Part shown: one piece after another, positions 44,858 to 60,579 of the stretch
Layout of the letters: each line of letters begins with the position of its first letter
Position numbering within the stretch: position 1 is the first letter of the stretch
Assembly (NCBI GenBank): GCA_016841205.1
Contig: JAENZP010000003.1
Coordinates: 62,001 to 126,000, forward strand
DNA from: Desulfoscipio geothermicus
GTDB lineage: Bacteria; Bacillota; Desulfotomaculia; Desulfotomaculales; Desulfallaceae
Reading direction: 5' to 3'
DNA: 64,000 bases
Notes under the pieces: generated by a model
Database searches by the model: none
Seen by the model: the letters and a program-made list of their open reading frames with translations, nothing else
Told to the model about the DNA's origin: nothing
Position numbers and translations under genes: made by a program

Positions 44858-45120
44858 AAGGACAAGGCAGGCAAAATCTCGGTAATTATTACATTAATTT
44901 ATCTATTAAGCAATTATTCGACTTTTTTTTAAATTTCGAACTGGCCACTTAATATTTGCCATATATATCAACTAACTAATTTAACATATATTACCGGGAT
45001 TACATATGAACTGGATAACCGTTACGGGCATCCGGTTTATTCCTTGTTGCTCTATTAGCCCGGGCGCAAGTTATTATGCTTTGACGCCTAATCTAGGAGA
45101 GAACGGATGTGATGCTTCGA

Positions 45121-48100
45121 TGAGCACGAAACCTGATAAGGTTGGAGCTGTACTGGTAGTTGGCTCAGGTATTGCCGGTATTCAGGCATCGCTTGATTTG
45201 GCGGAGTCAGGTTATTATGTATACCTGGTCGAGAAAAACCCCGCCATTGGCGGTGTCATGCCTATGCTTGACAAAACTTTCCCCACCAACGATTGCTCTA
45301 TGTGCATCCTGTCTCCCAAGCTAGTTGACTGTGGGAGACACTTGAATGTTAACACCATTACCAATGCTGAGGTATTGGATATTCAAGGCGAGCCGGGCAA
45401 TTTTAAAGTCACCCTTAAGCAGAAGGCACGTTTCGTTGACCCTACAAAATGTACCGGTTGCGGTTCCTGTGCCGAACAATGCCCGGTTAAAGTGCCGGAT
45501 GATTTTAACCAGGGTCTGAACAAGCGCAAGGCCATTTATAAGCTTTATGCTCAGGCCTTCCCTAATGCTTACGCTATTGACCCGACCAAATGTTTAAGAA
45601 TTAAAAAGCCCAAGGCATGTGGTAAATGCTTGCAAGCTTGCCAGGCTGGGGCTATTGACCACACCATGACCGACCAAATTACGGAAATAGAAGTTGGCTC
45701 GGTTATTCTCTGCCCCGGGTTTGACAAATTCGATTCCAGCCAGCTAGCCTATTACGGCTACGGCAAACACCCCAACGTTGTCACCAGCATGGAATTTGAG
45801 CGTCTCCTGAGCGCTTCCGGACCCTTCGGCGGGCATATGCAGCGTCCGTCTGACGGTAAGGAACCGCATAAGATCGCCTGGATTCAGTGTGTTGGCTCCC
45901 GTAACTGCCGCATTGATCGCGGCTACTGCTCTTCGGTATGCTGCATGTATGCCATCAAAGAAGCCGAGATTGCCAAAGAACACTCCCCTTACCCGTTGGA
46001 AACAGCTATCTTCTTCATGGACATGCGTACTTATGGTAAAGATTTTGAGAAATATTACGATAAGGCCGAACATGAGGTCGGCATACGATTTATTCGCTCC
46101 AGGGTTTACGAAATTGTCGAAGCCGGTGACGGTACCGGTAATTGCCGCATTCGTTATGCTGACGATGAAGGCAATATCACTTACGAAGACTTCGACCTAG
46201 CGGTGCTTTCTATTGGACTGGACGCTCCTGCCGATATGGTGGAGTTGGCCGGTAAACTGGGAGTAGAATTAAATAAGTATAATTTCTGCCAGCCTGCCAA
46301 GTTAACCGGTGTAGGTACCAACAAGCCCGGTATTTTTGTAGCCGGCGCCTTCAGCGGCCCCCGGGATATCCCCGAAACCGTCATGCAGGCCAGCGCGGCG
46401 GCAGCGGCTTCTGCGGCGGGTCTGGCAGAAGTACGCAGTACCCTGACCAAAGTGAAGGAATACCCACCAGAAAAAGACGTGTCCGGTGAAATAGTGCGCA
46501 CCGGTGTATTTGTGTGCCATTGCGGCATCAATATTGGCAGCGTGGTCAATGTACCGGAAGTAGCGGAATACGCTAAAACACTGCCGACGGTGGTTTTTGC
46601 CACTGACAACCTTTATACCTGTTCCCAGGATACTTCGGCAAAAATTAAAGAAGTCATCGCTGAACACAACCTGAACAGAGTTATCGTGGCCTCCTGCAGT
46701 CCCCGGACCCACGAACCCATGTTCCAGGAGACATTAAAAGAAGCCGGCCTTAACCCCAACTTGTTTGAGATGACCAATATTCGTGACCAGTGTTCCTGGG
46801 TGCACATGCATGAACCTGAAAAAGCAACCGAAAAAGCCAAAGATTTGGTAAAAATGGCTGTTTACAAGGCTGCCCTACTGGAACCGATTAATTCGGTCAG
46901 TTTGGACATGAATCATGACGCCCTGGTTATCGGTGGCGGTGTGTCCGGCATGACCAGTGCTGTTAATCTTTCCAAGCAAGGGTATAAAGTATACCTGGTG
47001 GAAAAAGCGGACGGACTGGGTGGCGTTGCCAACCGCATTCGCTATGGCATGACCGGCGAAGATATACCAGTGTTTGTCAGCGAATTAATTAACCAGGTAA
47101 AAACAGATGAAAAAATCACCGTTTATACCGGTGTTGAAATTACAGACGTGCATGGTTTTGTAGGCAACTTTGAAACCACCATTAGCAGCGGCGAAGTGAT
47201 TAAGCATGGTGTAACGGTTATTGCCACCGGCGCCGAGGAATACAGGCCCACTGAATACCTGTACGGGCAAAATGACCGGGTCATGACCCTGCTTGAGCTG
47301 GAGGCTTTGCTGGCCGAGGGTGATAGTACAGTTAAAGACGCTAAAAACATTGTCTTTATTCAATGCGTCGGCAGCCGGGAGCCCGAACGCCCCTACTGCA
47401 GTAGAATTTGCTGCACCAAGTCCATTAAGCAGGCGCTGCTGGCCAAAGAAGCCAATCCCGAAGCCAATATTTACATGTTATACCGGGATATCAGGACTTA
47501 TGGTTTCTATGAGGAACTCTACAGCGAAGCCCGCAGTAAAGGGATTATCTTTATCCGTTACTCGGTGGACAATAAACCACTAGTAGAAGCTGCTGAGAAC
47601 AGTGTGAAGGTTACTGTAACCGATCATGTGCTGGGCATACCTATCGAAATTGAAGCGGATTTGGTCGGGCTGGCTTCCGCTATAGTGTCTCCCAGGGAAA
47701 ACAACAGCAAGTTGAGTCAATTCTATAAAGTTCCGCTTAATCAAGAAGGCTTCTTCCTGGAAGCACATATGAAGCTGCGCCCGGTTGATTTTGGTACTGA
47801 CGGCGTATTTATGTGCGGCTTGGCACATGGGCCCAAAAATCTGGATGAGAATATCAACCAAGCAAAGGCTGCTGTGGGGCGGGCCTGCACCGTGCTGGCC
47901 AAGAACACCATAACTGTGGAAGGCAAGAGCGCTTTTGTCAACAAGAATAAGTGCGCTGGCTGCGGTGAGTGCGAAGCTATTTGCCCGGCCAAGGCTGTAC
48001 AAGTTGACCCAGCGCAAAGAGTAGCCGTGGTTAACGAAGCCCTGTGTAAAGGGTGCGGTGCCTGTGCATCATCTTGCCGCTGTGGAGCCATCAACATCAA

Positions 48101-48146
48101 GGGCTGCACCAACCAACAATTAGTCGCTATGTTAGACGCGCTATAG
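45121..48146 (+). CDS. hdrA: Long HdrA-type flavin/iron-sulfur electron-bifurcating subunit
   Basis: HdrA core of a Flx-Hdr type complex. ATG 45121 ([20 protein letters not shown]) is preferred; GGAGAG lies 18 nt upstream and the frame is open further back to 45006 without a better site. About 1008 residues made of two HdrA-like halves: first FAD fold [36 protein letters not shown], clusters [16 protein letters not shown] and [34 protein letters not shown]; a second FAD fold [20 protein letters not shown] and [20 protein letters not shown]-terminal clusters [16 protein letters not shown] and [11 protein letters not shown]. Directly followed by mvhD. Flavin-based bifurcation is known for the family; the partner reaction here is inferred. 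Confidence 0.93.
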
Positions 48147-48168
48147 ATGGGGGAGGGAAATGGATATC

Positions 48169-48609
48169 ATGGAATATGAACCTAAAATTGTGGCATTCTT
48201 ATGCAACTGGTGTAGTTATGCCGGTGCAGACCTGGCCGGTATAGGTCGTATCCAGTACCCACCCAATATCCGGGTGATACGCATACCTTGTTCCGGAAGA
48301 ATAAACCCCTTATTTATTATTAAAGCACTCCGACACAGAGCGGATGCCGTGCTGACCTCCGGGTGACACCCTGGTGACTGCCATTATGTTAGTGGCAACA
48401 TGGTAGCCCGCAGGAAATTTGCCTTATTAAAAGGATTACTGGAGTATGTAGGATATGATGAGGGCCGGGTAAACTTCTCCTGGGTATCCGCGGCCGAAGG
48501 TGGCCGTTTTGCTGAGATTGTCAAAAATGTCACAGAAAAGACGAAAGAACTTGGTCCCAATCATGGCCTAACTGATAGCGAAGCGGGGTGTAGCGGATGC
48601 CAAAGCTAG
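48169..48609 (+). CDS. mvhD: MvhD, selenocysteine-containing (UGA-coded)
   Basis: Small [2Fe-2S] protein that passes electrons between HdrA and its electron donor. ATG 48169 gives [20 protein letters not shown], matching the paralogue at 52165; ATG 48160 is only 3 nt from GGGAGGG. The frame has TGA at 48364-48366, read here as selenocysteine: ADAVLTSG[14 protein letters not shown]. In MvhD proteins this place is the first Cys of the conserved CxxGDCHY motif, and the frame stays conserved for 80 codons to the true stop ([20 protein letters not shown]). A hairpin follows the UGA and tRNA-Sec is in the same window. 146 residues; both halves are otherwise intact. Confidence 0.92.
48364..48397 (+). 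promoter_or_regulatory. Putative SECIS element in mvhD
   Basis: UGA at 48364, 12-nt spacer, then stem TGCCA (48379-48383), loop TTATGTTAG, stem TGGCA (48393-48397). Distance and small apical loop with GU fit bacterial SECIS elements read by SelB. The fold is by eye. Confidence 0.6.
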
Positions 48610-49553
48610 CCGAGCAAATCAAAGACACTGCTAAAAAGCTGCTGGCCGAACAGAAAGTGGACCTGGTCGTGGGCTTTACTGAAGGCAGTCTACCGCTGCG
48701 CGGCACGCCATTTTTCGCCAGGACACCTGAAGAAGCGGAAAAACTGACCTGGAATTTGGGCTGCGAAAATAATCTGGCCAATTACCTGCGCAAAAAAACG
48801 GGCAAAGTAGCCGTAGTGGCCAAAGGTTGTGACGTACGAGCCATTGTGGCACTGGTTAAAGAAAACCAAATTAACCGGGACGACCTTTATATCATCGGTG
48901 TGCCTTGCAGCGGTATGATTGACCGTAAAAAAGCAGCCGCGCTGCTTGACAGCCAGGAAATTTTGGCGATCGAAGAAAACGGGGATACCGTTGTAATAAA
49001 AGGCACTAACAACAGTGCAACAGCTAAGGTGACCGACCTGATGCATAGTTCCTGCCGGGACTGCAGCTATGGCAACCCGGTGATCTATGATGAGCTGGTT
49101 GGCGAATTGCTCCCCGAAAAGGAAGCTGCTGATTTTGCTGAAATTGAAGCATTTGAAGCCAAGACAGCCGCGGAGCGCCGCGCATTTATGAATAGTGAAT
49201 TTAGCAAGTGCATCAGGTGCTACGCCTGCCGGAACGCTTGTCCCATGTGCTACTGCGAAGAGTGTTTTGTAGACTGCAATCAGCCGGAATGGATCGGTAA
49301 GAGTGCCTATAACACAGAGGATAATATTCTCTTCCAGGTTGTCAGGGTGTTCCACTGTGCCGGACGTTGTGTCGACTGTGGAGCTTGTGAGCGGGCCTGT
49401 CCAATGGGCATCAACCTGCGCATGTTAACTCGTAAACTGGTTAAAGACGTTAAGGAACTGTATAACGCCGAAGCCGGGGTTAACATAGAGGATAAGCCAG
49501 CCCTGGCCACATTTACCGCCGACGATCCAGAAGCTTTCTTGTTGAAGGAATGA
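48597..49553 (+). CDS. FlxC-like iron-sulfur subunit with FrhB-type N-terminus
   Basis: ATG 48597 overlaps the end of mvhD by 13 nt. 318 residues. The N-terminus (QKVDLVVGFTEGSLPLRGTP, GKVAVVAKGCDVRAIVALVK, YIIGVPCSGMIDRK) resembles the FrhB/FdhB-type domain. Cysteine groups: HSSCRDCSYGN, then KCIRCYACRNACPMCYCEEC and HCAGRCVDCGACERACPMGI (two [4Fe-4S] clusters). In the Flx-Hdr complexes described in Desulfovibrio, subunits of this kind relay electrons between the NAD(P)H-binding FlxA and HdrA. Which Flx letter applies is uncertain. Confidence 0.8.
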   Translation: MPKLAEQIKDTAKKLLAEQKVDLVVGFTEGSLPLRGTPFFARTPEEAEKLTWNLGCENNLANYLRKKTGKVAVVAKGCDVRAIVALVKENQINRDDLYIIGVPCSGMIDRKKAAALLDSQEILAIEENGDTVVIKGTNNSATAKVTDLMHSSCRDCSYGNPVIYDELVGELLPEKEAADFAEIEAFEAKTAAERRAFMNSEFSKCIRCYACRNACPMCYCEECFVDCNQPEWIGKSAYNTEDNILFQVVRVFHCAGRCVDCGACERACPMGINLRMLTRKLVKDVKELYNAEAGVNIEDKPALATFTADDPEAFLLKE

Positions 49554-49563
49554 GGTGAAACTG

Positions 49564-50583
49564 ATGATAATTAGCAAAAAAGACATACCCGGCTTCCTGG
49601 ATAAATTAATTAGCGAATATCAAGTTTTTGCCCCTGTGCAAGAAGGCTCTTACACCTTATTTAAACCAATTAGTTCCGGCGCTGACGCTGTATTAACTGC
49701 TGATAACACCAAGCTTCCGGCCAAAGAAATATTTTTCCCGCAATCGGAAAAATTGTTCAGCTATAATGTTACCGAAGCAGGCGCCAAGCTGGAAACGGCC
49801 ATTGATGACCAGAAAAAAGTGATTTTCGGGGTGCGTCCCTGCGATGCCAGAAGTCTCGTTTTGCTGGACAATGTGTTTAATAATGATAAATTCCAGGATC
49901 CTTATTACTTAACCAAGCGTGCCAACACCATTATGGTAGGTATCGGCTGCAACACGCCCACCAGCACTTGCTTTTGCACTTCAGTAAAAGGCGGCCCCTT
50001 TGATACTAAGGGCCTGGATTTACTGCTGGTGGATACCGGTGACGCTTACGTAGTTGAAGTGTTATCGGACAAAGGCAAGGCTCTGGCTGAACAAGCCGGT
50101 TTTGTCGCTGCCTCTGATGCTGACAAGGCTTCCGCAGCAAAGGTCAAGAAGGAAGCTAAGGTAACCTGCCAAGTTAATACGGACGGTCTAAAAGATAAGC
50201 TGGATGTCAACTTTTATTATCCCATCTGGGATAAAATTCACGAAAAATGCCTGGGCTGCGGTGCCTGCACATATCTATGTCCCACCTGCCACTGCTTTGA
50301 TATAGTGGACGACGCCTTGGACTGCGATGGTTGCAGGGTGCGCAACTGGGATTCCTGCGCTTTCCCGATCTTTACCTTGCATGGTTCCGGCCATAACCCG
50401 CGTACCAGCAATAAAGAACGCTACCGCAACAGAATCATGCATAAATTTAAGTATTTCGTAGATAACTTTGGCGAAATCGCCTGCGTTGGTTGCGGCAGGT
50501 GCATTAAAAATTGCCCCGTTAATTTGGATATCCGAGTAGTACTTGAGGATGTTCGGGGCTCGGAAGCGAGGTTGGATAGTTAA
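49564..50583 (+). CDS. FlxB-like iron-sulfur subunit (AsrA-like)
   Basis: ATG 49564 (MIISKKDIPGFLDKLISEYQ) with GAGGTG 7 nt upstream; GTG 49555 is part of that site. 339 residues similar to anaerobic sulfite reductase subunit A/dicluster ferredoxin proteins: VIFGVRPCDARSLVLLDNVF, GIGCNTPTSTCFCTSV, then KCLGCGACTYLCPTCHCFDI, DGCRVRNWDSCAF and IACVGCGRCIKNCPVNLDIR. At least two [4Fe-4S] clusters. Its stop overlaps the ATG of the next gene (TTAATGA). Confidence 0.85.
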   Translation: MIISKKDIPGFLDKLISEYQVFAPVQEGSYTLFKPISSGADAVLTADNTKLPAKEIFFPQSEKLFSYNVTEAGAKLETAIDDQKKVIFGVRPCDARSLVLLDNVFNNDKFQDPYYLTKRANTIMVGIGCNTPTSTCFCTSVKGGPFDTKGLDLLLVDTGDAYVVEVLSDKGKALAEQAGFVAASDADKASAAKVKKEAKVTCQVNTDGLKDKLDVNFYYPIWDKIHEKCLGCGACTYLCPTCHCFDIVDDALDCDGCRVRNWDSCAFPIFTLHGSGHNPRTSNKERYRNRIMHKFKYFVDNFGEIACVGCGRCIKNCPVNLDIRVVLEDVRGSEARLDS

Positions 50584-51422
50584 TGAAAAATCCATATCTA
50601 CCGCTACCTATGAAGCTGGTGAAAAACTTTACAGAAACAGAGGATAAGTTAATCCACACCTTTACCCTGCAGTATTTAAGTGAGGAAGACGAAAAGAGTT
50701 TTCCATACATGCCGGGGCAGTTTGCCGAGCTGTGTGTCTTTGGCAAAGGAGAAGCGCCCTTTGGTATCGCTTCTTCACCTAGTGAGCCAGGTTTTCTAAA
50801 ATTCTCAGTGGCCAAAGTGGGTGTTGTTTCCACTGCCCTGCACCTAATGGAAGAGGGAAACATGATTGGCGTACGCGGGCCGCTGGGTAACTATTATCCC
50901 GTGGAAGAATTTAAGGGCAAAAACGTGGTCATTATTGGCGGTGGTTTCGCGTTTACCACTTTGCGCTCACTGGCCACCTATATGCTGCAGCCCGAACGCC
51001 GCGGTGATTACGGCGATATTACCGTAATTTACGGTGCTAGAAACCCCGGGTTGCTGCTGTATAAAGAAGAACTGGCTGCCTGGGAACAAAATCCGAATAT
51101 TAACTTAATCACCACCATTGACAGTGCAGTGGACGGCTGGAACGGCCGGGTAGGCTTTATTCCCGCCGTTACCGAAGAGGTGGCACCTAGTTCTGAAAAT
51201 ACCTATGCCATTGTCTGCGGACCGCCGGTGATGATTAAATTTACCATGCCCGTATTGGAAAAACTCGGATTCCCAGCCGAGAGAATTATTATGTCTCTGG
51301 AAAACCGCATGAAATGTGGTATTGGCATGTGCGGCAGATGTAATGTGGGAGGCAAATACGTCTGCAAGGACGGGCCGGTATTTACCAGGGCCCAGCTTAA
51401 TGAGCTGCCCGCTGAATACTAA
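50583..51422 (+). CDS. FlxA-like FAD/NAD(P)-binding oxidoreductase
   Basis: ATG 50583 directly overlaps the previous stop. 279 residues of the ferredoxin-NADP reductase fold: PYMPGQFAELCVFGKGEAPF, GIASSPSEPG (FAD), GPLGNYYPVEEFKGKNVVII, GGGFAFTTLRSLATYML (NAD(P)), YGARNPGLLLYKEELAAWE, and a C-terminal [2Fe-2S] motif RMKCGIGMCGRCNVGGKYVC. It would oxidise NAD(P)H and feed the FlxBC-MvhD-HdrA chain (known for Flx complexes; inferred here). End of the hdrA operon. Confidence 0.9.
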   Translation: MKNPYLPLPMKLVKNFTETEDKLIHTFTLQYLSEEDEKSFPYMPGQFAELCVFGKGEAPFGIASSPSEPGFLKFSVAKVGVVSTALHLMEEGNMIGVRGPLGNYYPVEEFKGKNVVIIGGGFAFTTLRSLATYMLQPERRGDYGDITVIYGARNPGLLLYKEELAAWEQNPNINLITTIDSAVDGWNGRVGFIPAVTEEVAPSSENTYAIVCGPPVMIKFTMPVLEKLGFPAERIIMSLENRMKCGIGMCGRCNVGGKYVCKDGPVFTRAQLNELPAEY

Positions 51423-51448: not shown

Positions 51449-51489
51449 TATAGTGTCTCTTTAACTATTATTTAAAGAGACGCTATATA
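51449..51489. repeat. Hairpin at the end of the hdrA-flx operon
   Basis: TATAGTGTCTCTTTAA/TTATTTAAAGAGACGCTATA, a long stem. No T tract on the plus strand; an mRNA 3'-end or processing hairpin. Confidence 0.6.
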
Positions 51490-51538
51490 AGATTAATCCT
51501 TAATTTTGTCATGTAAGATTAAGAGGGGAGGGATAAAA

Positions 51539-52150
51539 TTGGAAGCTATTAAAGCTGTCGATTTCAACCCCAAATTTAGGGACAAAGTTGCCGAACTGCT
51601 TGAGAGTTACGACTTTAGTAACTGCCTTGCCTGCGGTATGTGCACAGCAGGCTGCCCTTATACCGACCTCCTGAGAAACCATGACCCCCGCAAATTTTTG
51701 CGTAAAGTTCTGCTGGGCATGGAAGATGCAGTTTATGCCGATCCGTACATGTGGTATTGCAATATGTGCGAGCATTGTACTGTCGAGTGTCCCATGAACG
51801 TAAATATTGCCGCCCTGGTCAAGTCGATACGCAGTATGTGGGACAAGGACAAGATCGCCGGCCAACTGCAGGCCCTTGATAAAGAGCGTACTGAGTCCGG
51901 CAGCCTACCCTCGACGGGTCTGGTGGCCTCAGTGGATGTCAACAAGTGTGCAGCCTGCCTTACCTGCGTACGGTTATGCCCCGTTGAAGCGCCCCACATC
52001 CATAATGGCGCAGCGGAAATCGATCCAGTATTGTGCAAGGGCTGTGGAATTTGTGCGGGTGAGTGTCCCAATAAAGCCATTACGCTCCTGGGATATTATG
52101 AGCTCATGCTTAAAAATATGAATAGTTTATTTGATGAATGGTTTATTTAA
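51539..52150 (+). CDS. Chimeric HdrC-like / HdrA C-terminal ferredoxin protein
   Basis: TTG 51539 (MEAIKAVDFNPKFRDKVAEL) with GGGGAGGG upstream. 203 residues. Residues 1-115 match the HdrC part of 54622-55857 almost position for position (SYDFSNCLACGMCTAGCPYT, YCNMCEHCTVECPMNVNIAA), giving two [4Fe-4S] clusters. Residues about 125-203 match the last 75 residues of the HdrA at 56054-60088 (KCAACLTCVRLCP, CKGCGICAGECPNKAI). It is thus an HdrC head joined to the HdrA ferredoxin tail, as if a second hdrC-hdrB-hdrA set had been collapsed by an internal deletion. Likely a four-cluster electron carrier for the following MvhD-MetVF. Confidence 0.85.
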   Translation: MEAIKAVDFNPKFRDKVAELLESYDFSNCLACGMCTAGCPYTDLLRNHDPRKFLRKVLLGMEDAVYADPYMWYCNMCEHCTVECPMNVNIAALVKSIRSMWDKDKIAGQLQALDKERTESGSLPSTGLVASVDVNKCAACLTCVRLCPVEAPHIHNGAAEIDPVLCKGCGICAGECPNKAITLLGYYELMLKNMNSLFDEWFI

Positions 52151-52164
52151 GGAGGTGCATTTAG

Positions 52165-52617
52165 GTGCCAGAATTTGAGCCAAAAATTGTAGCCTTTTGC
52201 TGCCGTTACTGCGCTTATACAGCCGCAGACCTGGCAGGTTCAATGCGGTTACAGTATTCACCTAATATCAGAGTGGTAGAAATGCCCTGCTCGGGTACCA
52301 TTGAACACGGTGTGCTTTTGAATACCTTTGAAAAAGGCGTCGACGGCGTGTATATTGCCGGATGCAATCTCGGTGATTGTCACTTTTTAAAGGGTAACGT
52401 ACGTGCTATCAAGCGTGTAGCAGCAGTCAAAAAAATACTGGATGAAATAGGTCTAGGTGGAGACCGGCTAGAATTTTTCCACGTACCTGCTTCCGAAGGT
52501 ACGAAATTTGCCAAGGTAGCCAATGAGATGACGGAGCGCATCCGCCAGCTCGGACCCAGTCCCTTGAACAAAAGCGCGGCAGGTAACGCACAGAAAGAAG
52601 GTGGCCAAACAGCATGA
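52165..52617 (+). CDS. mvhD: MvhD, cysteine form
   Basis: GTG 52165 (MPEFEPKIVAFCCRYCAYTA) with AAGGAGGTG upstream. 150 residues; the motif GCNLGDCHFLKGN carries Cys at the place where the first mvhD has UGA. Other cysteines are in FCCRYC and VEMPCSG. A [2Fe-2S] adaptor expected to link MetFV with an HdrA. The stop overlaps the start of metV (ATGA), so they are co-translated. Confidence 0.93.
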   Translation: MPEFEPKIVAFCCRYCAYTAADLAGSMRLQYSPNIRVVEMPCSGTIEHGVLLNTFEKGVDGVYIAGCNLGDCHFLKGNVRAIKRVAAVKKILDEIGLGGDRLEFFHVPASEGTKFAKVANEMTERIRQLGPSPLNKSAAGNAQKEGGQTA

Positions 52618-53288
52618 TAGTAGCACAACAAAAACCCATTAAAGACATTGCTCAAATGATTAACGACTGTAAAAAAGTGTTGTTTGTTGGCTGTGCTGGC
52701 TGCGTGACGGTCTGCCTGGCCGGCGGCGAGAAGGAAACCGCAGTGCTGGCCTCGGCTATGCGCATTAAGCGCATTCTGGAGAACAATCCTCTGGAAGCCA
52801 TTACTTATACCTGCACCAGGCAGTGCGACCCCGAGTACATCGCGTCCTTGGATAACCAGGTAAAGGATGTAGACGCCATTGTATCGCTGGCCTGCGGGGT
52901 GGGCGTGCAATACCTGGCCGAGCGCTTTAAAGATAAGTGGGTGGTACCCGCTCTGGATACCAAGTTCATCGGTGGCTCTACTGTACACGGCGTTTGGGAA
53001 GAGAAATGCGGGCTTTGCGGCGAATGCATTTTGCATCGTACCGGCGGCATCTGCCCCATCATCCGCTGTTCCAAGAGTATTTTAAACGGTCCCTGCGGCG
53101 GTTCCCAGTACGGCAAGTGCGAAGTGAACAAGGACATAGACTGCGCTTGGCAGCTGATTTATGACCGCATGAAGGCATTGGGCAAACTTGATAAACTAAT
53201 GGAAATTCAACCGCCCAAAGATTGGTCCAAGTCACGTGACGGCGGACCGCGTAAAGCTATCAGGGAGGATGTGATGATAGATGAATAA
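52614..53288 (+). CDS. metV: MetV, iron-sulfur/zinc partner of methylene-THF reductase
   Basis: ATG 52614. 224 residues: KKVLFVGCAGCVTVCLAGGE (cluster-type cysteines), TCTRQCDPEY, SLACGVGVQYLAERFKDKWV, and the C-terminal methylene-THF reductase C (MTHFR_C) segment EEKCGLCGECILHRTGGICP, CSKSILNGPCGGSQYGKCEV. MetV is known from Moorella and related acetogens as a partner that allows MetF to take electrons from Fe-S carriers. It overlaps metF by 8 nt. Confidence 0.93.
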   Translation: MIVAQQKPIKDIAQMINDCKKVLFVGCAGCVTVCLAGGEKETAVLASAMRIKRILENNPLEAITYTCTRQCDPEYIASLDNQVKDVDAIVSLACGVGVQYLAERFKDKWVVPALDTKFIGGSTVHGVWEEKCGLCGECILHRTGGICPIIRCSKSILNGPCGGSQYGKCEVNKDIDCAWQLIYDRMKALGKLDKLMEIQPPKDWSKSRDGGPRKAIREDVMIDE

Positions 53289-54207
53289 TCTAAGTAAACT
53301 TCAGCAAATACTTGATAGCGGTCAATTCGCGGTAACTGCGGAAATTGGTCCACCCAAGCATTCCTCCGCGGAGGGCATTCGCCATCACGCAGAAATGATG
53401 CGCGATTACGTAGACGCCACTAATATTACCGACAACCAGACGGCCATTGTACGTATGTCCAGCATAGCGGCTGGAGCACATGTGCTTGGCTGCGGCATTG
53501 AGCCTATCGTGCAGATGACCTGCCGGGATCGCAACCGGATTGCCATGCAATCCGATTTATTGGGCGCTTACAGCCTGGGTATGCGTAATGTGCTTTGCCT
53601 GTCCGGCGACCACCAAAAGTTTGGCAACCACCCCATGGCTAAAAACGTATACGATATCGACTCCATGCAGTTGATTGATAACCTGCGCCGCATGCGGGAT
53701 GAGAAGGTGTTTTTCTCGGGTGAGGCCATTAAGGAAAGCGAGCCCCAATTCTTTATCGGGGCAGTAGCTAACCCTTTTGCCGATCCATTTGAGTTCCGGG
53801 TGGACCGCTTAGAAAAGAAAGTAAATGCCGGTGCCCAATTTATTCAAACCCAGTGCATCTTTGATATGGAACGCTTTGAGCGGTTTATGGAAATGGTGCG
53901 CGAGCGGGGTATCGATCAGCGAGTGCATATTCTGGCCGGAGTAACCCCGATGAAAAGCTGGAAGGCGGCAAGTTATATGCAAAATAACGTCAGCGGTATG
54001 ATCGTGCCCAACGAACTGGTAGAACGCCTTAAAAACGCCGAGGATCCCAAGCGTGAAGGTCTAGATATCTGTATTGAGCAAATTAAATATATTAAGGAAA
54101 ACGTCAAAGGCGTACACGGAGTACACATCATGGCTATAGCCTGGGAAGAAGTAGTCCCCGAAATCGTTGAAAAATCCGGTTTGTATCCCCGACCTAAGGT
54201 TGGGTAA
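53281..54207 (+). CDS. metF: Methylenetetrahydrofolate reductase
   Basis: Reduces 5,10-methylene-THF to 5-methyl-THF, last step of the methyl branch, delivering the substrate of AcsE. ATG 53281 with GGGAGGATG upstream. 308 residues of the FAD-dependent TIM barrel: VTAEIGPPKHSSAEGIRHHA, DATNITDNQTAIVRMSS, QMTCRDRNRIAMQSDLLGA, NVLCLSGDHQ, QFIQTQCIFDMERFERFMEM. Conserved Glu in AEIGPPK. With MetV, MvhD and Hdr genes around it, it is probably part of a MetFV-Hdr-MvhD complex as in Moorella. Confidence 0.95.
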   Translation: MNNLSKLQQILDSGQFAVTAEIGPPKHSSAEGIRHHAEMMRDYVDATNITDNQTAIVRMSSIAAGAHVLGCGIEPIVQMTCRDRNRIAMQSDLLGAYSLGMRNVLCLSGDHQKFGNHPMAKNVYDIDSMQLIDNLRRMRDEKVFFSGEAIKESEPQFFIGAVANPFADPFEFRVDRLEKKVNAGAQFIQTQCIFDMERFERFMEMVRERGIDQRVHILAGVTPMKSWKAASYMQNNVSGMIVPNELVERLKNAEDPKREGLDICIEQIKYIKENVKGVHGVHIMAIAWEEVVPEIVEKSGLYPRPKVG

Positions 54208-54621: not shown

Positions 54622-55857
54622 ATGGAAGATATTATAGCTGATCATCTTAATCCCCAATTTAGGGAAGAAGTTGCTAAACTGCTTAAAAGTTATGACTTTG
54701 GTAACTGCCTGGCCTGCGGCATGTGCTCAGTGGGCTGCCCGTATGTCGACCTGGTGGAAAACCATAATCCCCGTCAATTTTTACGCAAAGTATTGCTGGG
54801 CATGAAAGATGAAGTATATGCCGACCCTTACATCTGGTACTGCAACATGTGTGAGCAATGCACCATCGAATGCCCCATGAACGTAAATATTGCGGCTCTC
54901 GTACGATCACTGCGCGGCACTTGGGACAAAGACAAAATTCCAGGCTACCTGCAGACTATTGTCAAGGAGCACATTGAGTCCGGCAATCAAATGAATGTTT
55001 GTCAGGAAGACTACGAAGATACTTTGGATTGGATTGAAGAGGAACTGCAGGAAGAACTAGGCGACCCCGATTATAAAATCCCGCTAAACAAAAAAGGTGC
55101 AAAATATTTCTACGGTTTTAATGCCCGGGATATTAAGTTTTATCCCAATGAGTTGCAGACCACTTTAAAACTGTTTTATGTAGCAGGCATTGATTATACC
55201 ATCAGCACCAAGCGCTGGGACGCCACCAATGCTGCACTGTTTACCGGTCAAACCGATGACTTTTTAGCTATTTCTATGCCCCTGTGGCAGGAAGTTGCCG
55301 ACCTGGAATGTAAAGAGTTGATTGTAACCGAGTGCGGACACGCCTTCCGTTCCATGAAATGGGGCTTTAGAACATATTGGAAAGGCAAGCCTTATCCCAT
55401 TCGCCATATTATAGAACTGCTCAACGAACTGGTCAAGGCAGGTAAAATTAAACTTGACCCCAATGCTATTACCGAGGTAGTTACTTATCACGACCCGTGC
55501 AACACCGCCCGTAAAGAAGGCGTATATGAAGCACCGCGCGAGTTAATTCGAAGTTTTGTAAAGAACTTCGTGGACATGAATCCCAACGGCAAGATGAATT
55601 ATTGCTGTGGTGGTGGCGGCGGTGCTATGGCTATGCCGGAATTCAACGACATTCGTAAAAACAAAGGTAAGCGCAAAGTGGATCAGGTAGTAGCCGCCGG
55701 TGCGGAAATTGTAATAGTACCCTGCCACAACTGCATGGACCAGTTTAACGATTTAAATAAATGGTACCCGGAAAAAGCCAAGTCTAAGAACATGCACATG
55801 TGTGACCTAATGGAAAGAGCCCTGATTATGCCCGAAAAACTCTGGCAATCTGCGTAA
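54622..55857 (+). CDS. HdrC-HdrB fusion (CCG-domain heterodisulfide-reductase-like)
   Basis: ATG 54622 with AGAGGTGAG upstream. 411 residues. HdrC part (1-130): NCLACGMCSVGCPYVDL, WYCNMCEQCTIECPMNVNIA. A linker with many acidic residues follows (DTLDWIEEELQEELGDPDY). HdrB-like part (about 180-400): LIVTECGHAFRSMKWGFRTY, TYHDPCNTARKEGVYEAPRE, YCCGGGGGAMAMPEF, VPCHNCMDQFNDL. The first CCG repeat is degenerate (ECGHA), the second is complete; close to HmcF/TmcB/HdrD-like proteins of sulfate reducers. Probably the site passing electrons to a thiol or a quinone-linked partner; the substrate is unknown. Confidence 0.88.
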   Translation: MEDIIADHLNPQFREEVAKLLKSYDFGNCLACGMCSVGCPYVDLVENHNPRQFLRKVLLGMKDEVYADPYIWYCNMCEQCTIECPMNVNIAALVRSLRGTWDKDKIPGYLQTIVKEHIESGNQMNVCQEDYEDTLDWIEEELQEELGDPDYKIPLNKKGAKYFYGFNARDIKFYPNELQTTLKLFYVAGIDYTISTKRWDATNAALFTGQTDDFLAISMPLWQEVADLECKELIVTECGHAFRSMKWGFRTYWKGKPYPIRHIIELLNELVKAGKIKLDPNAITEVVTYHDPCNTARKEGVYEAPRELIRSFVKNFVDMNPNGKMNYCCGGGGGAMAMPEFNDIRKNKGKRKVDQVVAAGAEIVIVPCHNCMDQFNDLNKWYPEKAKSKNMHMCDLMERALIMPEKLWQSA

Positions 55858-56053
55858 AGCCTTTTTTGAGTCATTTTTTTGATTTTATTGTTTATTTTAA
55901 CAATCAAGTTTTTAATAAGACTGCATATCTATATATATCCTTAAAAGAAGGGTATATATAAATATGCTATTTAATAAATAAAGAGTGTTCGGTAATTAAT
56001 TACGTATGCATATTGCCGTTAAAACGCTCTGCAAGGAGAGGACGGGTAATCTC

Positions 56054-59000
56054 TTGGGCAAAGATAAGGTTGGCGCAGTTATGGTGGTAGGTGCCGGTAT
56101 TGCTGGCATCCAAGCGTCCCTTGACCTGGCGGATTCCGGTTACTACGTTTACCTAGTGGAGCAGTCACCGGCCATCGGTGGAAATATGCCGACGCTTGAT
56201 AAAACTTTCCCTACTAATGATTGTTCCATGTGCATTTTATCCCCCAAAATTGTTGAATGCGGCAGACACTTGAATATTGAAAAGCACATGTTATCCCATA
56301 TTGTAGATGTCCAAGGTGAGCCCGGTAATTTTAAAGTGACCATACATAAAAAATCCAGTTTTGTGGATTTGGATAAATGCATTGGTTGCGGTGATTGTGC
56401 CGGTACCTGCCCGGTGGACGTACCCAATAAATTTAACGCCGGCTTGGATAACCGTCAGGCCATTTACAAGCTATACCCCCAGGCTCTACCGGCGGCCTTT
56501 GCCATTGAAAAGACCGGTATGGCACCCTGCCGGGCAGCATGCCCGGCGGGAGTAAACGTCCAGGGTTATGTACAATTAATTAAAAGAGGTAAATTTCAGG
56601 ATGCCTGGGCATTAATTTACCAGAATAACCCCTTCCCGGCCGTATGCGGACTGGTCTGTGCCCACCCCTGCGAAACCAAGTGTCATAGAGGCCAAATCGA
56701 TGCCCCGGTGAGCATTAGAAACTTAAAGCGAGTAGCTGCGGAAATAGCCTACGCTAATCATATTGATGAGCTTCCTTTACCCGGTCGAACTGCCGATCGG
56801 GGGCAAAGTGTTGCGATTATCGGCAGCGGCCCGGCCGGTTTAACTGCCGCATATCACCTGGTAAAAAGGGGTTACCGGTCAGTTGTCTTTGAAGCTGATC
56901 GATTGGCCGGTGGCATGATGCGGAAAAACATCCCTGAATACCGCCTGCCTAGGTATTACCTGGATATTGAAATACAACTATTGGAGAAAATGGGCGTAGA
57001 AATTAGGTGCAACAAACGCTGGGGCACAGACTTTTCAGTGACCGAGCTAAAAAATGAATTCGATGCTGTTTTTATTGCTACTAGAACGCCCAAACCAGCT
57101 AAACTGGGCATGCCTGGCAAAGAATTGGCAAAAGTAATTCCCAAACATATTTACCTTTCTGATGAAGACATGTCTTTATTAAATGATACCGGGCGGCTGC
57201 AAGTGGACCGTGACACTCTGGAAACCAGCCTGGCCGGTGTGTTTGCCGGCAGCGATAATGTCACAGGACCTCGGGATGTGATAACAAGCATCGGTGCCGG
57301 TAAAAGAGCAGCTGAATCCATAGACCGGTACCTCAACGGTATTGAACAGAAAACAAACCGGGTCTTTAAAATGCCTAAAGATAAAATCGCACCGCTAAGA
57401 CAAAATTTGGGGAGAGTTCCCCACAGCGCAACGGCACAGCCACCCTTAACCCCGGTTGAACAACTCGTGCAGGGGTTTGCCAAGGAAAGCCCCGTGCTAA
57501 CGCCGGAACAGGCCATAGCCGAGGCAGAGCGCTGCCTGAACTGCGGTGTTTGCTCCGAATGTGGTGAGTGTGTAAACACCTGCCTACGCGAGGCTATTAA
57601 TCTCCAAATGCAAGATGAATACCTTAAATTGCAGGTGGGCGCAATTATTTTAAGCACCGGAGTAACGACTTATGATCCCAGCAATTTATTCTACCTGGGC
57701 TACGGCAATTATCCCAATGTGGTGACCAGCGCAGAATTTGAACGCATGCTGAGCGCCTCTGGACCCTACCAGGGGCACCTACTACGGCCCTATGACCAAC
57801 GGGAACCCCGTAAAATTGCCTGGATCCAGTGCGTCGGTTCCAGGAACGTCAGGGAAAGCCACGGCTATTGTTCCTCGGTATGCTGTATGTCCGCCATCAA
57901 AGAGGCGGTTATCGCCCAAGAGCACAGCGATCAGCCGCTGGAGACCACTATATTTATGATGGACATGCGCTGCTACGGTAAGGATTTTGAAAAGTATTAC
58001 CAACGCGCCAGGCATGAACATAATGTAAATTTCGTACGCAGTAGAATATACCAGGTCGAACAAGCTAATCAGACAACTAAAAACCTTCTGATTCGTTATC
58101 AGGATGAAAACGATAACTTCTTTACCGAAGAGTTTGATCTGGTGGTGCTATCCGTGGGTCTGGAACCTGCGGCAGAGGCCAAAGAAGTGGCTGAAAAAAT
58201 GGATATCAAGGTCAACAAGTATGGTTTTGTCCAACTGGCCCCCCTTACCGGCGTAAACACTACCCAGACCGGTATTTATACCGCTGGGGCCTACAGCGGT
58301 CCCAAAGATATTCCCGAAACAGTGCAGCAGGCCAGCGCAGCAGCCGGTGCTGCCGGCAGCCTACTGAGCGAGGTGCGCGGCACGCTCACTAAACAAAAAG
58401 CATTTCCGGCCGAGCGGGATGTGCCTAGTGAAGAACCGAGAATTGGGGTATTTGTTTGCCAATGCGGCGTTAATATCGGCGGTGTGGTAAGGGTACCTGA
58501 AGTGATGGAAGCGGCTAAACAATTGCCTTATGTGGCGCATGTCGAGGATAACCTGTATGCTTGTTCCCAGGATAGCCATGCTAAAATTAGGGATGCTATT
58601 TTGGCACACCGATTGAACCGGGTGGTAGTAGCCTCCTGCAGTCCACGGACACATCAGACGCTGTTCCAGGAAACACTGCAGGAAGCCGGCCTGAACAAGT
58701 TCCTGTTTGAAATGGCTAATATTAGGGACCAGTGTTCCTGGGTGCATATGTATGTACCCGATAAGGCCACGGAAAAGGCAATTGATTTAGTAAAAATGGC
58801 TGTGTTTAAAGCCGCGCTGTTAAAACCGATCCGGCAGGTCTCGGTAGGGGTAACCAAGTCAGCCCTTATTATTGGCGGTGGTGTAACAGGTATGGTCAGT
58901 GCCCTCTCCCTGGCTGAAATGGGTTATCAGGCTAGCCTGGTGGAAAAATCCGCTGCGCTGGGCGGGATGGGTAAACGCATTAAGCTGGGTTTATATGGCG

Positions 59001-60088
59001 AAGATATTGAAGCCTATACTAATGATTTAGTTAACCAGGTGGAGCAGCACCCGCTGATTACCGTGTACAAATCATCCGAAATATGTGAAGCTTCCGGCTA
59101 TTTAGGGAACTTTACGACCACATTGACTGATGGCACCCAGATTAAACACGGAGTTACCATAGTGGCCATTGGCGGCCGGGAGTATCAACCCAGTGAATAC
59201 CTCTACGGACAAAGTGACCGGGTGATGACCCTGCTGGAAATGGAAGAAAAGATAGCCCTGGGCGGGCTAAAGGACGCAAAAAACATTGTTCTTATTAACT
59301 GCGTGGGCTCCCGGGATACCGAACGTCCCTATTGCAGCCGCATTTGCTGTTCCAAGTCGGTCAACCTGGCCATCAGGTGTAAAGAAAATAACCCTGCCGC
59401 CAATGTATTTGTCCTGTACCGGGATGTCCGCACCTACGGCTTTCTGGAGGATACTTACCAGGAGGCCCGGGTCAAAGGTGTAATCTTTGTCCGGTATGAT
59501 GAAAACCGGAAACCACAAGTGGCCAATAGTACTCAGGGCATTACCGTCACGGTCAGGGATCATATTCTGGGTAGAAATATCATAATTAACCCCGATGTGC
59601 TGGGACTGGCCGCGGCCATACTGCCGCCGGAAGACAATGCCAATTTGAGCCAGCTGTTTAAATTGCCGCTAAATGCAGATGGGTTTTTTCTAGAAGCGCA
59701 TATGAAGCTCCGCCCGGTTGACTTTGCTACCGAAGGGGTTTTTATGGCCGGTGTTGCCCACGGGCCAAAGAACATGGAAGAAAATATTACCCAGGCTAAA
59801 GCTGCTGCAGGACGGGCCGCCACCATTTTAAGCAAAGAAAGCCTGGCATCGCCGGGTGTTGTGGCCACAGTGGACGCCAACAAATGTGCCGCTTGCCTAA
59901 CCTGTGTTCGCTTATGCCCCTTCAACGTGCCCCAGATTAACGATAACGTGGCAGAAATTGAACCCATTCTATGTCAGGGGTGCGGCATTTGTGCCGGGGA
60001 GTGCCCCAACAAAGCCATTGAGCTGCAAGGCTATAGTGACTGCATGTTTTTAAATTTGCTTAAAGGATTATTTGAGGAGGTATGTTAA
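56054..60088 (+). CDS. hdrA: HdrA with inserted GltD-like FAD module
   Basis: TTG 56054 (MGKDKVGAVMVVGAGIAGIQ) or ATG 56006; AAGGAGAGG lies between them at 56032, so TTG is preferred. About 1344 residues. HdrA first half: [32 protein letters not shown]. At about residues 152-500 there is an insert resembling GltD/NfnB: APCRAACPAGVNVQGYVQLI, CGLVCAHPCETKCHRGQIDA, VAIIGSGPAGLTAAYHL (FAD), NIPEYRLPRYYLDIEIQLLE, VFAGSDNVTGPRDVITSIGA. The GltD NADPH-binding half (VVVIGGGN-type) is missing. HdrA resumes with [37 protein letters not shown], a second FAD fold ALIIGGGVTGMVSALSLAEM, and C-terminal clusters CAACLTCVRLCP and CQGCGICAGECP. Pairs with the HdrC-HdrB gene upstream. Confidence 0.92.
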   Translation: MGKDKVGAVMVVGAGIAGIQASLDLADSGYYVYLVEQSPAIGGNMPTLDKTFPTNDCSMCILSPKIVECGRHLNIEKHMLSHIVDVQGEPGNFKVTIHKKSSFVDLDKCIGCGDCAGTCPVDVPNKFNAGLDNRQAIYKLYPQALPAAFAIEKTGMAPCRAACPAGVNVQGYVQLIKRGKFQDAWALIYQNNPFPAVCGLVCAHPCETKCHRGQIDAPVSIRNLKRVAAEIAYANHIDELPLPGRTADRGQSVAIIGSGPAGLTAAYHLVKRGYRSVVFEADRLAGGMMRKNIPEYRLPRYYLDIEIQLLEKMGVEIRCNKRWGTDFSVTELKNEFDAVFIATRTPKPAKLGMPGKELAKVIPKHIYLSDEDMSLLNDTGRLQVDRDTLETSLAGVFAGSDNVTGPRDVITSIGAGKRAAESIDRYLNGIEQKTNRVFKMPKDKIAPLRQNLGRVPHSATAQPPLTPVEQLVQGFAKESPVLTPEQAIAEAERCLNCGVCSECGECVNTCLREAINLQMQDEYLKLQVGAIILSTGVTTYDPSNLFYLGYGNYPNVVTSAEFERMLSASGPYQGHLLRPYDQREPRKIAWIQCVGSRNVRESHGYCSSVCCMSAIKEAVIAQEHSDQPLETTIFMMDMRCYGKDFEKYYQRARHEHNVNFVRSRIYQVEQANQTTKNLLIRYQDENDNFFTEEFDLVVLSVGLEPAAEAKEVAEKMDIKVNKYGFVQLAPLTGVNTTQTGIYTAGAYSGPKDIPETVQQASAAAGAAGSLLSEVRGTLTKQKAFPAERDVPSEEPRIGVFVCQCGVNIGGVVRVPEVMEAAKQLPYVAHVEDNLYACSQDSHAKIRDAILAHRLNRVVVASCSPRTHQTLFQETLQEAGLNKFLFEMANIRDQCSWVHMYVPDKATEKAIDLVKMAVFKAALLKPIRQVSVGVTKSALIIGGGVTGMVSALSLAEMGYQASLVEKSAALGGMGKRIKLGLYGEDIEAYTNDLVNQVEQHPLITVYKSSEICEASGYLGNFTTTLTDGTQIKHGVTIVAIGGREYQPSEYLYGQSDRVMTLLEMEEKIALGGLKDAKNIVLINCVGSRDTERPYCSRICCSKSVNLAIRCKENNPAANVFVLYRDVRTYGFLEDTYQEARVKGVIFVRYDENRKPQVANSTQGITVTVRDHILGRNIIINPDVLGLAAAILPPEDNANLSQLFKLPLNADGFFLEAHMKLRPVDFATEGVFMAGVAHGPKNMEENITQAKAAAGRAATILSKESLASPGVVATVDANKCAACLTCVRLCPFNVPQINDNVAEIEPILCQGCGICAGECPNKAIELQGYSDCMFLNLLKGLFEEVC

Positions 60089-60579
60089 AATAGCTTAATT
60101 TGAACTAAAATTACTACTACTGAACATACTTAGCTGCAAACCTGGCGGTTCTATGGTTGCCTTGATAAAATAGAGAAGAAGTGATATCCGTAATCATGGA
60201 ATTATGCGAACTTCAATCCAAGACCAAAGTGGGCTAGTACATCTATACCAAAGAGCCCTCCCGGAGGGTCTCTTTGGTTTGCTAAAACAATTATTGGAAA
60301 AAAGTTTACTGATAGACATTTTATAACACATGCAGCCCAGAGAGCTTAATAAAAACACTGTCCACAGAGAATAATTTAGACAACTGTCCCAGGCTGCTCT
60401 TTTTTGTCAATTTTAAAATAAAGGAATGCTGTTATCTTTGCCGTATTTTACTAAAGGACATTTAATAAGTTAAGGGAAATTTTATGCAAGGTACTACCAA
60501 CTAGTACAGCCAAAATAGTGGACAAACCCATCAATCTGCCATAAAATATTTCTAGGTCAAAAGAAGGGGAGATTACCTT
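60089..60579. other. Spacer with terminator of the hdr genes
   Basis: Terminator ACCAAAGAGCCCTCC-CGGAGGGTCTCTTTGGT at 60247-60280, followed by TTGCTAAAAC. No gene recognised in the remaining AT-rich sequence. Confidence 0.6.
60247..60280. terminator. Terminator at the end of the hdr block
   Basis: Strong inverted repeat ACCAAAGAG-CCCTCC/GGAGGG-TCTCTTTGGT; the plus-strand T tract is short (TTTGGTTT). Confidence 0.75.

Follow-up and report, generated by a model that had tools for sequence, protein, structure and literature searches.

A fusion of HdrC with the ferredoxin tail of HdrA, of apparent deletion origin, in the MetVF unit of Desulfoscipio geothermicus and its relatives

The gene at positions 51539-52150 (plus strand, 203 codons) of the 64,000-nt stretch of Desulfoscipio geothermicus DNA analysed here (the window) is a clean mosaic of two parents: an HdrC-type head is joined to the C-terminal ferredoxin tail of an HdrA. 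Judged from its sequence, this chimera is a functional, lineage-specific gene maintained by selection. The explanation that we favour, and hold to be fairly probable, combines an origin by internal deletion with a role as a four-cluster wire from MvhD–MetVF to the HdrA of the adjacent Flx unit. The kind of gene cluster that holds the chimera is already known; no description of the chimera itself was found in the literature searched, which took in only a minority of subscription journals.

The electron donor and the second acceptor of the Hdr-type methylenetetrahydrofolate reductase (MTHFR) are still open, Moorella being entered with a question mark in a published table (PMC5861303). The clade described here amounts to a natural deletion experiment, in which the MetVF unit has a small four-cluster protein instead of an HdrA of ~160 kDa, and named strains exist in both states (Sporotomaculum syntrophicum versus D. 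gibsoniae). It also shows step by step how duplication and deletion can rewire a redox complex of several domains, with the intermediate states surviving in relatives.

Anatomy of the chimera and of its locus

A preliminary description of the window had matched the head of the chimera with the gene at 54622-55857 and its tail with the end of the HdrA gene, and nucleotide alignment bears this out. Chimera nt 2-364 pair without gaps with 54623-54985, the start of hdrCB, at 77.4% identity (E 3e-79), and nt 364-599 with 59840-60078, at the end of the HdrA gene, at 71.1% (E 8e-29), so that the two alignments abut at a single base, nt 364. Residues 1-122 are 70% identical to the HdrCB protein and residues 122-200 are 65% identical to HdrA; in 20-residue windows the change of parent comes sharply at residue 120, HdrCB identity being 0.65 before it and 0.15 after, and HdrA identity 0.15 before and 0.70 after. 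HdrC codons 1-121 thus pass gaplessly into the last ~80 codons of HdrA, the head comprising residues 1-121 (nt 51539-51901) and the 2[4Fe-4S] tail residues 122-203. The start given earlier for the HdrA gene, 56054, is one choice; its open reading frame begins at 56006.

The protein contains 16 Cys residues arranged in four CxxCxxCxxxC motifs, those at positions 29, 32, 35, 39, 74, 77, 80 and 84 making up the two [4Fe-4S] motifs of the head, as in HdrC (TIGR03290; 5odc chain C, 7bkb chain C). Pfam assigns the head to an HdrC-type dicluster domain and the tail to a 2[4Fe-4S] ferredoxin domain, and the PDB matches are HdrC chains for the former and HdrA residues ~568-635 for the latter. Unlike HdrC, however, the chimera has no C-terminal HdrC part and carries the additional ferredoxin tail: it scores 67.1 bits against TIGR03290, over positions 2-77 of 144 only and below the curated cut-off of 160, and it stays under the NCBIfam cut-off of every Hdr family. 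The FAD/thioredoxin-reductase core with the bifurcation Glu and Lys, by which HdrA is defined (NF040770 / NF041778), is absent; the chimera covers only positions 561-627 of the 777 of the HdrA profile, the C-terminal ferredoxin stretch, and has neither flavin nor substrate sites. An AlphaFold model built from a 17-sequence input (mean pLDDT 54, tail <50) was too poor for inter-cluster distances.

The gene begins at a TTG (51539), preceded at 51524-51532 by the Shine-Dalgarno-like AGGGGAGGG, which derives from the flxA-hdrCB spacer by descent. The TTG is common to all four known chimeras and the first in-frame Met does not occur before residue 34; hdrCB starts with ATG. Such a start may lower expression.

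All genes of the locus lie on the plus strand. Upstream of the chimera is a Flx unit consisting of a type II (double thioredoxin-reductase) hdrA (45006-48146), a flxD/MvhD-like gene (48160-48609), a flxC-like gene (48597-49553), a flxB-like gene (sulfhydrogenase beta/AsrA-like; 49555-50583) and a flxA-like gene for a FAD/NAD(P)-binding reductase (50583-51422). The spacer between flxA and the chimera contains a 12-bp inverted repeat (51449-51487; arms 51449-51460 and 51476-51487). Downstream follow mvhD (52165-52617), metV (52614-53288; DUF5981, methylene-tetrahydrofolate reductase C-terminal family), metF for methylenetetrahydrofolate reductase (53281-54207), an intact hdrCB fusion of HdrC with a single CCG HdrB/HdrD-like domain (54622-55857) and, directly behind it, a gene for an HdrA2 paralogue with a GltD-like insert (56006-60088). 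The flxD/MvhD-like gene is open only when an in-frame TGA at 48364 is read through (TSG-U-HPGDCH), a selenocysteine candidate, and the gene of relatives is split at the same place.

The clustering of metVF, mvhD and hdr genes is that of an Hdr-type (MetVF-Hdr-MvhD) MTHFR, as in MetFV-HdrABC-MvhD of Moorella thermoacetica and HdrCBA-MvhD-MetVF of Sporomusa ovata. Unlike in these systems, the MetVF unit opens here with a flavin-free 203-aa HdrC-HdrA-tail fusion. Likewise, flxA-D beside hdrA and hdrBC (45006-51422 plus the hdrCB slot), with the type II HdrA in an hdrA-flxD-flxCBA unit directly upstream, is the arrangement of FlxABCD-HdrABC, as in Desulfovibrio vulgaris, but the operon position of the natural HdrC partner, the hdrCB slot, is taken by the chimera, with hdrCB situated only after metF.

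Origin within a duplicated array

In the other genera with a readable locus (L016-L027; a few contigs stop before metF), the gene order is hdrA(type II)–flxD–flxC–flxB–flxA–hdrCB–hdrA–mvhD–metV–metF. The four genomes that carry the chimera, namely the window genome, Sporotomaculum syntrophicum (L014) and two MAGs (L013, L015), have it exactly between flxA and mvhD, and in all four hdrCB–hdrA is found after metF. The spacer 5' of the chimera is 73% identical over 112 nt to the flxA–hdrCB spacer of Desulfoscipio strain L, and the passage from the chimera end into mvhD is 82-84% identical over 122 nt to the hdrA–mvhD junctions of D. gibsoniae. Both flanks are thus an inheritance of the slot, and the fusion of head and tail took place there. 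The family retains the inverted repeat in the upstream spacer, and some of the changes in it are compensatory: in 5 of 12 sequences both arms have changed, giving U-A for C-G.

Duplicated sets survive in relatives. D. gibsoniae (L060) has flxCBA–hdrCB–hdrA1–mvhD–metVF–hdrA2–mvhD–metVF, with a tandem second set, and strain L (L061) has the same array with hdrA1 reduced to a pseudogene by frameshifts and an internal deletion (L061:9345-10289, minus strand); here the slot HdrA was lost independently, hdrA2 being present. In one genome of another genus (L063/L064) hdrA2 likewise follows metF.

The proposal of the preliminary description, that a duplicated hdrCB/hdrA array suffered an internal deletion, is supported by the gene order at the slot, the duplicated array of relatives and the inherited flanks, and on sequence comparison it is the best account of how the chimera arose. 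The sequences point to an ancestral array flxA-hdrCB-hdrA1-mvhD-metVF-hdrA2-mvhD-metVF, in which a deletion that began at codon 121 of hdrCB and ended near codon 1279 of an HdrA2-type gene joined HdrC in frame to the HdrA tail, intact hdrCB and HdrA2 surviving downstream. In a D. gibsoniae-like array a single deletion (~12.2 kb there) would directly yield chimera–mvhD2–metVF2. The intact hdrCB that additionally stands before hdrA2 requires a further duplication. A search for microhomology at the chimera joint returned a few fitting bases and nothing convincing.

The deletion route of the preliminary description stands, with the refinement that the hdrCB and HdrA genes of the window are paralogues of the actual parents. 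On DNA the chimera tails group with HdrA2, whose signatures SLAS and GLVA they share (HdrA1 has HLES and GVVA), and GCGICAGE is common to chimera tails and the HdrA2 of the carriers only. A tail derived from the first-copy HdrA1 is ruled out by these signatures and by the DNA grouping. The window HdrA is itself a second copy, with 79-80% identity to the second-copy proteins of its genus and 65% to HdrA1. The mvhD behind the chimera belongs to the second-copy group as well, joined to the corresponding gene of strain L with a bootstrap of 99. The heads are less straightforward: in the DNA tree they fall with the hdrCB of the carriers themselves, then with D. gibsoniae, strain L and G015, and in the protein tree with the slot hdrCB of the latter three. 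This conflict could possibly reflect gene conversion, or duplications more complex than those outlined above.

The downstream genes retain further traces of the duplicated set. The hdrCB before hdrA2 keeps ~25 bp of slot upstream sequence and lies directly 5' of the conserved hdrA2 leader, and behind HdrA2 there is a 45-bp 5' relic of mvhD (60116-60160, plus strand), of first-copy type and 83% identical over 48 nt to the G015 mvhD, a scar of that set. A candidate metF relic behind HdrA2 was dropped, as its alignment was no better than those of shuffled sequences, and the mvhD relic alone stands. First-copy mvhD genes beside metVF in relatives (L060-L069) have an in-frame TGA at a Cys position (CCHY-TGA-AYT in L061), where the chimera clade has TGC for Cys, possibly a Sec-to-Cys switch.

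Distribution, age and selection

Of 113 genomes searched in the order, representing 55 genera, 4 have a full-length match to the chimera, and these belong to a single genus; the class-level search covered the same 113 genomes. A 398-genome sample of the phylum contained none besides the window's own genome, and a scan of viral contigs for the chimera joint found none. The flxABC tree unites the four carriers in a clade whose sister is D. gibsoniae, so a single origin of the chimera suffices. The opposite polarity, with the chimera ancestral and separate hdrCB and hdrA derived, or an old and widespread independent family whose halves would be equally distant from the genes of the window, the outcome that would have told against the preliminary description, found no supporting point. 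The restricted distribution argues against it, as does the intact hdrCB-hdrA that holds the same slot in all other genera, and both halves of the chimera nest within the genus's own gene trees; we give this reading almost no credence.

The four chimeras are open and of equal length, the other copies being 86-89% identical to that of the window. All 16 cluster Cys are invariant, and whole-gene pairwise dN/dS is 0.08-0.16 (dS 0.23-0.80), which together indicate a functional and young gene. A deletion-born gene could also be a decaying remnant without function; the chimera heads do have longer branches than hdrCB heads in the trees, and the counterpart hdrA1 of strain L is a pseudogene. Decay is, however, hard to reconcile with a same-length open frame in four genomes at this level of identity, with the retention of every cluster ligand, or with such dN/dS values at dS of up to 0.8, and we consider it very improbable.

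All seven genomes of the genus have dsrA. Acetyl-CoA synthase is encoded by the window genome (at ~39 kb in the window) and by that of L013; a search for CdhC/acetyl-CoA synthase in the other two carriers (G011, G014) did not find it, and the Wood-Ljungdahl pathway seems to be incomplete there. As both nevertheless retain metVF, mvhD, the chimera and the Flx unit, the role of the unit cannot hinge on the full pathway.

A shortened HdrA2 and the proposed electron path

The HdrA of relatives (1473-1506 aa) corresponds to the 1487-aa HdrA of Moorella thermoacetica, whose GltD insert is predicted to bind NAD(P)H (PMC9430772). That of the carriers has 1357-1368 aa, against 1478-1495 aa for the second-copy proteins of D. 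gibsoniae, strain L and Desulfotruncus, a difference of ~110-130 aa. In all four carriers the missing block is the NAD(P)H-binding Rossmann motif region (VTVIGGGNVAIDxARSALRMGA…) of the GltD-like insert, the junction being in frame at codon 379/380 (nt ~57143), and the FAD Rossmann (GSGPAGL) is retained. The remaining HdrA thus differs from the Moorella form, with its NAD(P)H-binding insert. The bifurcation Glu and Lys are kept in the first domain of both the type II HdrA and HdrA2.

In the HdrABC–Mvh complex electrons pass from MvhD to the C-terminal ferredoxin domain of HdrA, then to FAD and on to HdrC/HdrB (PMC9012536), and in Sporomusa ovata HdrA is recovered in pull-downs with either MvhD or MetV (PMC9430772). 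In the HdrA2 family profile the ferredoxin stretch directly precedes MvhD as consecutive modules, and HdrA type Ia (the HdrA-MvhD fusion, HdrA2 of Methanosarcina acetivorans) has the same succession of HdrA ferredoxin tail and MvhD; unlike in type Ia, the tail of the chimera is severed from the flavin domain and joined to HdrC, and MvhD is a separate gene. From the published wiring, the module order of the profile and the pull-downs we infer contacts of the tail with MvhD, and hence MetVF, and of the head with an HdrA; the cofactor content, the direction of electron flow and the loss of an own NADH input are proposed in the same manner.

The chimera would retain the ferredoxin by which electrons enter from MvhD and the HdrC wire by which they leave, the flavin core being gone, and would act as a wire of four [4Fe-4S] clusters. 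Its tail would bind the [2Fe-2S] protein MvhD, and its head would dock on an HdrA, for which the type II protein of the neighbouring FlxABCD unit is the likeliest candidate, so that MetVF would be joined to the Flx-HdrA machine without an NADH-oxidising HdrA of its own. The compact four-cluster connector suggested in the preliminary description fits the anatomy, the selection and the published HdrABC wiring; on this basis the chimera is probably a bare iron-sulfur wire replacing the large electron-splitting subunit of relatives, the role itself being deduced from these features. That one deletion stripped the bifurcating flavin core and a second removed NAD(P)H binding, so that an Hdr-type MTHFR that oxidised NADH became hard-wired to FlxABCD-HdrA, is a more specific proposal, which we rate slightly below an even chance.

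The head could instead pair with HdrA2 or with the single-CCG HdrCB. On the same origin, HdrA2, HdrCB, the chimera, MvhD and MetVF would then form one complex, in which the chimera merely replaces a lost docking tail. In every carrier metF is indeed followed directly by hdrCB and hdrA2, and MetVF has HdrA and HdrB as interaction partners in S. ovata (PMC9430772), but HdrA2 has its own C-terminal ferredoxin tail, which would make a second one redundant, and the chimera directly follows flxA and does not adjoin hdrA2. We regard this arrangement as rather unlikely. A free, diffusible or regulatory ferredoxin-like protein outside any Hdr complex would be in keeping with four clusters as the sole cofactor sites and with the shared TTG start, yet the chimera is head-to-tail with mvhD-metVF in each of its four genomes and both its HdrC head and its HdrA tail are under purifying selection; such a role is improbable.

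With the chimera as a wire between MetVF and the Flx HdrA, electron flow could go either way, and oxidation of methyl-THF would be possible in these sulfate reducers as well as reduction of methylene-THF. In the second thioredoxin-reductase domain of HdrA2, at residue ~1120, the bifurcation Lys is replaced by Asn (CCSKSVN), as it is in the HdrA2 of D. gibsoniae.
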